48,076 nt of DNA from Candidatus Heimdallarchaeota archaeon (GTDB lineage Archaea > Asgardarchaeota > Heimdallarchaeia > Heimdallarchaeales > JAJRWK01): NCBI GenBank assembly GCA_027001645.1, contig JALTMP010000232.1:1-48076 (forward strand), read 5' to 3'. The position numbers and the translations under genes were made by a program. This document shows positions 28,364 to 46,895 of this stretch, in pieces; position 1 is the stretch's first letter, and every line of letters starts with the position of its first letter. A model generated the notes under the pieces. The model was not told the DNA's origin and searched no databases. It worked only from the letters and a program-made list of their open reading frames with translations.

Positions 28364-29539
28364 TCACACCTGAGGAGTCTCTAAAGATAGGACAATTTCT
28401 TTCGCTTGTTCTCGCAAGTTTTCTTTCTTTTCAAGATGGTCGCGCCGATAATCCTCGATTCTAACGATTAATTGCTTCTTACATGGCCCACAGAGCAATT
28501 CTCCAGATCTGCACTGTTGTTCGCGTTCCACTAGTGAATTATCATCCTCTTCGAACATGAACTTGAAAAGATCAAAGACTCTACAAATCTCGGGACGGCC
28601 ACCAAGTCGTCTTTGCTCTTCAGCAGTATCTCGTCCCCCAGTAAACGCATTGCGTATCTTATAGGAGATCTCTTTCATCTCTTCATGCAAATAGAAAGAG
28701 GAAAGTGGGTTGCGCTTTGACATCTTGTCGCTACCATCTATGCCACCAATCAAGCGGTGGTAAGTAAAGCTAGGTAAGGTAAACCGTTTTTTGAAAAATC
28801 CCCGTCTAACAATATCACGGGATAGACGAGCGTGAGGGGCTTGATCAGCACCCACGGGAGTAATTGTTGGCATTGGGCCTTCCATAATTTGTGGAAGTAA
28901 GATATCGGCGACTTGAATAAGAGCAGCATTATAATACCCCAGCCGAGGTTTTTCGCCATAAACACCTCTCAACTCGTTCATGGTGACATGTGCGGAAAAG
29001 ATAAGACCATAGTGCTTAACCAGATCTTCGGAAGACTGCTTGTAAATATAGGCATTTTTCAAATCTAGGCCCAGTGCTAGGAGGTCAGCAACATTATCAA
29101 TTGCAGTATCTACAGCATCGTTAAGTGAGAGGTTATTGACAACGTAACTTTCATAGTCTGCAATGCAAAAATAGACCTTTCCGCCGAGACGTTGAAAATG
29201 GACGACTTCCATCGCCGTCATTAGACTGCCAACATGGTAGGGGTTTGAGGGCTTAATGCCTGTCATTACCGCAAATTTATCAGCGTTAATAATTGCTTCA
29301 ATTACCGGTTCCATACCGGTATGACCAAAGATTATTCCTCGGGTCATGAGAAAATGTCGTTTCTCCGGTGGGAGTTTATGAATTAGAGGAGAAAAATCTT
29401 GGATTCCAAATTCTCTCATTAGTTTTTGATAACTCTCTACGATGCCGGTGCCGAGAGCGTCTACTACAGGAGATGCGCGTTGTTCTGTCTCATTTTCATC
29501 CTTCGGCATTTGTTCTGAGTCTTGGTTCTCTTTCACCAC
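28364..29539 (-). CDS. trpS: Tryptophanyl-tRNA synthetase
   Basis: MTGIKPSNPYHVGSL, VGADQAPHARLSRDI, DKMSKR, AFTGGRDTAEEQRRLGG, CRSGELLCGPCK. Confidence 0.92.
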   Translation of the reverse strand: MVKENQDSEQMPKDENETEQRASPVVDALGTGIVESYQKLMREFGIQDFSPLIHKLPPEKRHFLMTRGIIFGHTGMEPVIEAIINADKFAVMTGIKPSNPYHVGSLMTAMEVVHFQRLGGKVYFCIADYESYVVNNLSLNDAVDTAIDNVADLLALGLDLKNAYIYKQSSEDLVKHYGLIFSAHVTMNELRGVYGEKPRLGYYNAALIQVADILLPQIMEGPMPTITPVGADQAPHARLSRDIVRRGFFKKRFTLPSFTYHRLIGGIDGSDKMSKRNPLSSFYLHEEMKEISYKIRNAFTGGRDTAEEQRRLGGRPEICRVFDLFKFMFEEDDNSLVEREQQCRSGELLCGPCKKQLIVRIEDYRRDHLEKKENLREQAKEIVLSLETPQV

Positions 29540-29689
29540 GATTATTCACCTGGTCCTACTAGCTAGTTTTAAGATCCTTGTCAATGGAATCTACTCAACA
29601 ATTAATAAGTCATAAGAATGAAAACCAATCTTTGGGTTCAAAGAACTCAAACGTGGAAAGATTATAATTCGAGAGTACAAAACATGACA

Positions 29690-29762
29690 TGGCTGGGATG
29701 ATGATAAGAGAGTCACCGAGAGCTTTTTGCAATGATCCTCGACGGGCGAACTGATCCAGCCA
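29690..29762 (+). ncRNA. Candidate archaeal box C/D sRNA (2'-O-methylation guide)
   Basis: Terminal stem TGGCTGG(G)/(T)CCAGCCA; C box ATGATGA (29698-29704); D' CCGA (29716-29719); C' ATGATCC (29732-29738); 12-nt guide TCGACGGGCGAA; D box CTGA (29751-29754); TATA-like ATTATAATTC at 29661-29670. Confidence 0.75.
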
Positions 29763-29769
29763 CCAATTA

Positions 29770-30492
29770 CTAGCTCAATGCATCTAGCAGATCACTTAAC
29801 GATGCTTCAAAATCGGGTCTTAATTCCGAATGATCTTTATTTTCAACATGTGTAGGGACAAGAACAGTCGCAATCCCTAGTTGTGAGGCGGGAATATCTG
29901 TTTCTAGATCATTCCCGATCATGATCGCTTGGTGAGGAGAACAATTGAACTTGTCTAGGAGTTGTTGAAAATACTCTCGCTGAGGTTTCACGTACTTAGA
30001 ATTCTCTGCATGAGTAATATGGTCAAAGTGCTCCGGAGAGAGACCACCCCATGTGATTCTTTTTTCAACAGCGATCAGTGGAAATACGGGATTAGTAGCA
30101 AGAACCACGTAGATCCCTTTACTTTTTGCCAATTCCAACAACTCTTTCGCAACAGGATATGGCCGAATCATTGTTTCTAACTCATCATAAGAAGAGGAGT
30201 AAAAAGCTCGAAAACGAAGATTGACTTCTTCTCGCGAGATTGGGACATATGGTGTAAACTTGTCAAGAAAGACATCAAGAAAGAACTTTGATCCATCCAT
30301 GGTACTCATAGAGTCAAACGTTGCTTTCAGTAGTAGCTTTTGAAAGTCTTCAAAATTCATCAGATCCTGAAAATGTCGATGAGCTAAGCGAATATAGTCC
30401 GTATAGAAAACCTTAGGACTGAAGTCAATGAGTGTTCCATCAAGATCAAAGAGCAATAATTTCGCATTACCAAACCTTTTTTTTAGCTCCAT
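29770..30492 (-). CDS. HAD-superfamily hydrolase
   Basis: LLFDLDGTLIDFSP, VLATNPVFP, AIMIGNDLETDIPAS. Confidence 0.92.
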   Translation of the reverse strand: MELKKRFGNAKLLLFDLDGTLIDFSPKVFYTDYIRLAHRHFQDLMNFEDFQKLLLKATFDSMSTMDGSKFFLDVFLDKFTPYVPISREEVNLRFRAFYSSSYDELETMIRPYPVAKELLELAKSKGIYVVLATNPVFPLIAVEKRITWGGLSPEHFDHITHAENSKYVKPQREYFQQLLDKFNCSPHQAIMIGNDLETDIPASQLGIATVLVPTHVENKDHSELRPDFEASLSDLLDALS

Positions 30493-46803: not shown

Positions 46804-46895
46804 TGGCGGGCGCGAGGGGATTTGAACCCCCGACCAGGCGGTTTCTCTGAAAAATCTTAAGAGCCGCCCGCTCTGCCTTGCTGAGCTACGCGCCC
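46804..46895 (-). tRNA. tRNA-Lys(CTT) with 15-nt intron at 37/38 (intron 46843-46857), encoded CCA
   Basis: Minus strand gggcgcg-ta-gctc..gagc-g-ggcgg-ctCTTa[agatttttcagagaa]a-ccgcc-tggtc-ggggg-ttcaaat-cccct-cgcgccc-g-cca. Confidence 0.93.

Follow-up and report, generated by a model that had tools for sequence, protein, structure and literature searches.

A conserved Asgard box C/D sRNA gene with a guide predicted to target 16S rRNA C1402

Introduction

The 16S rRNA residue C1402 lies next to the start codon in the P site and carries a 2'-O-methyl group in bacteria, eukaryotes and Pyrococcus. Asgard archaea are the group closest to eukaryotes, and a locus of this group raises the question of how the same residue might be reached there. 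The locus is part of a 48,076-nucleotide stretch of DNA from Candidatus Heimdallarchaeota archaeon (the whole stretch is called the window), where a 230-nt gap separates the genes of TrpS (28364-29539, minus strand) and a HAD hydrolase (29770-30492, minus strand). An initial annotation read positions 29690-29762 of the plus strand as a box C/D sRNA gene directed at C1402. Here we ask whether the gap holds such a gene and which residue its guide would address.

Anatomy of the element

All parts named in the initial annotation were found where it had placed them. The features of the locus, including one revision, are as follows.

29662..29669, plus strand: TATA-like TTATAATT, candidate promoter, about 24 nt 5' of the stem
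29690..29697, plus strand: terminal stem, 5' arm TGGCTGGG; sequence, shuffles, compensatory change in homologues
29698..29704, plus strand: C box ATGATGA; without change among the eight closest homologues
29705..29717, plus strand: D' antisense region TAAGAGAGTCACC, running up to GAGA; identical in three congeners
29716..29719, plus strand: D' box CCGA as initially placed; present in the sequence
29718..29721, plus strand: probable D' box GAGA; sheared GA/AG pairs with C' and a neighbouring variable stem (inference)
29722..29730, plus strand: short stem-loop linking D' and C', GC...GC; variable stem, pairing across homologues
29732..29738, plus strand: C' box ATGATCC, degenerate; ATGA core retained in homologues
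29739..29750, plus strand: D guide TCGACGGGCGAA, 12 nt; bases 29740-29748 pair with 16S C1400-G1408, G29746 opposite C1402
29751..29754, plus strand: D box CTGA; present in the sequence and in homologues, invariant in the eight closest
29755..29762, plus strand: terminal stem, 3' arm TCCAGCCA; sequence, shuffles, compensatory change

The element has a C box of the form RUGAUGA, a D box CUGA and a terminal stem that joins the two, and judged by these sequence features it is a box C/D sRNA gene. The stem has the 8 bp ascribed to it, one of the pairs being G-U, and the gene does run antisense to both flanking coding sequences. There are four pairs of C and D boxes at the right spacing in the window, and this is the sole one with a stem of at least 5 bp; in 100 first-order Markov shuffles of the window, stems of at least 7 and at least 8 bp occurred 0.01 and 0.00 times per shuffled window, respectively.

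One has to consider that box-like motifs are arranged here by chance, with no RNA gene behind them. The folding of the element could be read in this way, as its minimum free energy is ordinary (z -0.92), but C/D sRNAs have little stable helix and such folding is therefore uninformative for the class. An Rfam scan of the window assigned the element to no family at threshold, and no snoRNA family reached its gathering score; with the threshold relaxed, the seven matches in the element's stretch were without exception C/D RNAs on the same strand. Elsewhere in the window we observed an archaeal SRP RNA (RF01857, 4816-5128, plus strand, 116 bits) and an 89-nt tRNA (46807-46895, minus strand) that was detected by Rfam and missed by ARAGORN, and that may contain an intron.

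The D' box deserves a comment. The letters of CCGA, the initial proposal, are present, but GAGA is the better placement and probably the D' box, because it would give a k-turn with C' plus the short variable stem: GAGA can form sheared GA/AG pairs with the UGAUC of C', together with A-U and G-C pairing. Both CCGA and GAGA are degenerate partners of ATGATCC; the adjacent short stem covaries, and other internal pairings are possible.

Conservation in Asgard genomes

Homologues are found in the same genus, in another family of the same order (f3) and in distant Asgard families. A DNA search located the element in both congeners, G001 and G002, and a box and guide pattern run over 228 Asgard genomes added five further elements, all in f3. 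The pattern occurs in 10 of the 228 genomes, as opposed to 1 of 228 for a reversed control pattern. A covariance model gave matches in 30 of the 228 genomes (E <= 0.01), about 26 of which are left after discarding four. Among the matches dropped, L103-L105 are located within long ORFs, and L102 is without a guide. The loci L004 and L040 were likewise put down to chance and rejected.

The terminal stems of the homologues are divergent yet paired, i.e. TGGCTGGG/TCCAGCCA, ATGGCTTTAGG/CCTAAGCCAT (with one bulged T), TGCACAA/TTGTGCA and AGAGA/TCTCT, and nine out of ten modelled pairs are altered on both sides among homologues. The covariation score of eight sequences is 0.696, as compared to 0.279 when shuffled and at most 0.257 when slid, and that of 24 homologues, in an alignment that had been fitted to the model, is 0.672 as compared to 0.202 when shuffled. 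Compensatory change is strong both in the terminal stem and in the stem between D' and C', which reads GCG...CGC in G001, and TAC...GTA and GTGT...ACAC in f3. Thus the boxes and the stem, whose loss in relatives the initial annotation had named as speaking against the gene, are kept with compensatory change. Compensatory change over such deep divergence, together with the outcome of the control pattern, argues against a chance arrangement; as far as sequence conservation can tell, that reading is already refuted, and we give it practically no weight.

Between families the guide core and its distance to the D box are retained, whereas the D' antisense region and the stems vary. G001 has exactly the same D' antisense TAAGAGAGTCACC, although the HAD protein encoded next to the element both there and in the window is only 45% identical. 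A GUCA that forms part of the antisense is still present in f3 and might pair with another part of the RNA. We found no convincing match of at least nine pairs on the correct strand between the D' antisense and 16S or 23S rRNA, and its matches with one mismatch are weak, including those to 30 tRNAs of G002.

The gene neighbourhood is conserved on a shorter scale. The trpS/HAD context that had been expected in relatives holds for the two closest genomes but not beyond, and a HAD protein query against the genome contigs returned no match. In f3 the element adjoins mutually similar genes which, from reading their sequence, we take to be Trm5-type tRNA methyltransferases; what we presume from its sequence to be a DUF371-like gene is found near the element in f3 (g3) and in G001. 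In families f9, f10, f11 and f25 it adjoins a similar-looking short gene that is roadblock-like by eye. Inside each group, such shared neighbours speak for common descent; from group to group, the link is the RNA sequence alone.

The predicted target in 16S rRNA

The contigs of the window genome contain no 16S rRNA gene. Both congeners carry CACCGCCCGUCGCUC in their 16S rRNA, hence the guide makes nine Watson-Crick pairs: guide bases 3-11 pair with C1400-G1408, and the fifth base from the D box, G29746, faces C1402, as the initial annotation had derived from the N+5 rule. This is one pair above the initial count, owing to the G at position 1408. As cautioned at the outset, the two bases that adjoin the D box are indeed unpaired in the window element. 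In other Asgard families they are GT or GA, which adds 16S pairs; the GT of f4, f5, f9 and f19 pairs with A1398 and C1399.

There are two sites in 23S rRNA that compete with C1402, and either of them could in principle be the main target of the C/D sRNA. The first, CGCCCGUCGGG, sits a short distance upstream of the G2058-equivalent and makes ten Watson-Crick pairs and one G-U pair with the guide in all three congeners. The initial annotation, whose account of the 16S complementarity holds, had overlooked this 11-bp match. It is confined to the window's genus: CGCCCGUCGGG is missing from the 23S rRNA of G005, G010, G095, G039, G173 and G174, which belong to other families and have kept the guide, and the site was rejected as a target. 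The second is the A-loop, UUCGCCC, which shares the core CGCCC with the 16S site. The A-loop of the window's genus reads UUCACCC, which leaves guide positions 4 and 8 mismatched, and in the five Asgard families that are cleanly comparable (f1, f4, f25, f9 and f19) the A-loop fits the guide more poorly than the C1402 site does, so it was likewise rejected as the Asgard target. The comparison is closer in f3, where the 23S rRNA of G005 has a G at a position that is A in most others (E. coli 2561, by our own count). The guide of G005 is shifted by one base and in this register fits its own A-loop well; the N+5 residue on 16S rRNA would there be G1401. Taken together, we consider a main target in 23S rRNA unlikely.

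Another point that needs to be discussed is the mismatched guides. C1402 faces a G in the window element and in most Asgard homologues, but guides of f9, f5 and the Lokiarchaeota g31 have one A opposite C1404, C1403 or C1402, with 16S rRNA unchanged where it could be read. Guides of the form GACGGACGG(T/A), with the A opposite C1402, are found in g31 (L089, L090, L092 and L095) as well as in Micrarchaeota and their kin (L130, L150, L157, L159, L178 and L182), 16S being unchanged where readable, so this mismatch is common to two distant groups. Compensating 16S changes for guides with a mismatched core were looked for and none was found: G095, G093, G039 and three genomes of the Micrarchaeota type have an unaltered 16S sequence. 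Guides that are otherwise near-perfect and mismatched at just this position might suggest that the sRNP acts on the helix 44 strand of 16S rRNA mainly as a folding chaperone, methylation being secondary or absent, and a chaperone role has been proposed for C/D sRNAs (PMC4644070). The G that faces C1402 in the window element and in the majority of Asgard homologues speaks against this, as does the Cm at the equivalent residue of P. abyssi (PMC7005279), and we regard a main role as chaperone as very unlikely. The sRNA very probably acts with fibrillarin to methylate the 2'-OH of 16S C1402 through its D guide, a reading that draws on the conserved anatomy, on complementarity at a fixed spacing and on the presence of fibrillarin and Nop5 genes. 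The initial target assignment is thereby supported, and among the contrary observations it had listed, none of those looked for was made.

Some observations on the rRNA genes are added here. Position 1408 is G (CGCCCGUCG) in L005, L009 and other Asgard loci, and A in the Methanothermococcus and Micrarchaeota 16S sequences that were compared; eukaryotes have G at the equivalent position. The 16S gene of G001 (L014) is 1792 nt long as compared to 1485 nt in the congener G002, i.e. about 300 nt are inserted (an intron or an insertion). The 23S gene of G000 (L027, about 650-1450; also L025 and L026) has an insert of about 800 nt before GTAGCCAAATGCCTTGCC with a coding-like end, resembling an rRNA intron with an ORF.

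Machinery and proposed mechanism

Nop5 and fibrillarin are encoded by adjacent genes in the window genome (L044; Fibrillarin E 1.3e-85, Nop E 4.1e-68). A TATA-like sequence had been noted upstream of the element, and TTATAATT is present there but matches TTTAWATA in just 5 out of 8 positions. Matches of at least 7 out of 8, 15-42 nt upstream, occur in 42% of Asgard loci as opposed to 5% of control stretches, and the TATA-like octamers of Asgard loci are mostly 20-24 nt from the stem. Since its own octamer scores lower, the promoter of the window locus is tentative.

By analogy with known C/D sRNPs, we propose that the gene is transcribed and the RNA folds so that C/D, and probably also C'/D', form kink-turns, on which L7Ae, Nop5 and fibrillarin would assemble. 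The sequence upstream of the D box would then pair with 16S CGCCCGUCG (1400-1408) at the base of helix 44, and fibrillarin would methylate C1402, which faces the fifth base counted from the D box, at its 2'-OH. An effect on initiation may follow.

Relatives beyond Asgard

Beyond the Asgard genomes we scanned for the exact pattern of C, C', guide core and D, for which about two chance matches are expected in the collection (an estimate from base counts). At least 113 stretches carry the pattern. Among the matches listed, 79 out of 80 come from archaeal records, which range from Thermoplasmata to Micrarchaeota, and a terminal stem of at least 4 bp is present in 65 out of 80, as compared to about 22% of controls with mismatched partners. 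When the 80 listed guides are compared with the consensus targets, the A-loop is better for 40, the 16S site for 21, and 19 are ties. The former number speaks for 23S as the main target of such non-Asgard guides; as many of those listed favour the A-loop, we make no claim that all guide C1402. A contig of a Chloroflexota-labelled MAG also contains an archaeal-type C/D sRNA (L129, 3198-3252, minus strand); it resembles those of Diapherotrites and is probably a binning contaminant.

The kind of RNA described here is not new, as the C/D guide class and archaeal Cm at the C1402 site are already known. What is new is the Asgard sRNA family and its wide archaeal relatives, and their moderate interest lies in the place of the Asgard archaea in the tree and in the breadth over which similar guides are retained. 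One may speculate that a single lineage of Cm1402 C/D sRNAs is retained in Asgard archaea, DPANN, Thermoproteota and Euryarchaeota, mesophiles among them, that its Asgard version is ancestral to eukaryotic U43/snR70, and that in some lineages a guide altered opposite the methylated residue lives on as a chaperone of helix 44. This scenario is doubtful as a whole, and we would give it a small chance.

Comparison with known systems

It is instructive to compare the element with known guides. Rfam sR2 (RF01139) shares the C/D architecture and resembles the element in its D guide. The Methanothermococcus element L194, in which the guide AGATGGGCGAG precedes CTGA, is identified by Rfam as sR2, with a full-length match of 55.2 bits. 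The window element differs in that it scores 12.0 bits, below the gathering score of 42; its D'-C' region is longer, its D' box is non-canonical, and it has GACGGGCGAA where L194 has GATGGGCGAG.

Among eukaryotic systems, U43/snR70 are likewise C/D RNAs for the equivalent residue (18S Cm1703 in human, Cm1639 in yeast and Cm1645 in plants), snR70 being, as we presume, the yeast guide for Cm1639. The window element would guide the equivalent residue by complementarity only: it has no demonstrated sequence homology to U43/snR70, and no snoRNA model matched at threshold in the window. The archaeal list that contains Cm1369 appears to derive from the Pyrococcus sRNA survey of Gaspin in 2000. Cm at the C1402 site of P. 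abyssi is tabulated under that number, and plant AtU43 guides the equivalent Cm1645 (PMC11542601). The site equivalence between E. coli C1402 and the eukaryotic residues is taken from Table 4 of PMC7005279. In P. abyssi, the nucleotide that is the predicted target of the window element was found methylated by cryo-EM and LC-HRMS (Cm1376, E. coli 1402), a modification counted as part of the eukaryotic pattern; the pair m6A1469-Cm1376 helps to hold the start codon phosphate in the P site (PMC7005279). H. volcanii is listed without this Cm (PMC2584109). Of the sites predicted in a survey covering seven archaea, only about 17% are common between species; the survey calls helix 44 predictions sparse, and its text places them only at positions 1408 and 1494 (PMC4644070). 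The present family, on the other hand, exemplifies a C/D guide with wide conservation.

The initial statement that C1402 is a known modified site agrees with the plant and P. abyssi data and with bacteria, where RsmI methylates the ribose of the same C1402 (PMC5053481); the archaeal Cm at this site had not been mentioned there. RsmI is a stand-alone protein enzyme that works without a guide RNA. The same site would thus be reached by a protein enzyme in bacteria, by a guide RNA in eukaryotes and by a predicted guide RNA in Asgard archaea, which makes it testable whether the snoRNA-guided site of eukaryotes was inherited along with its guide.
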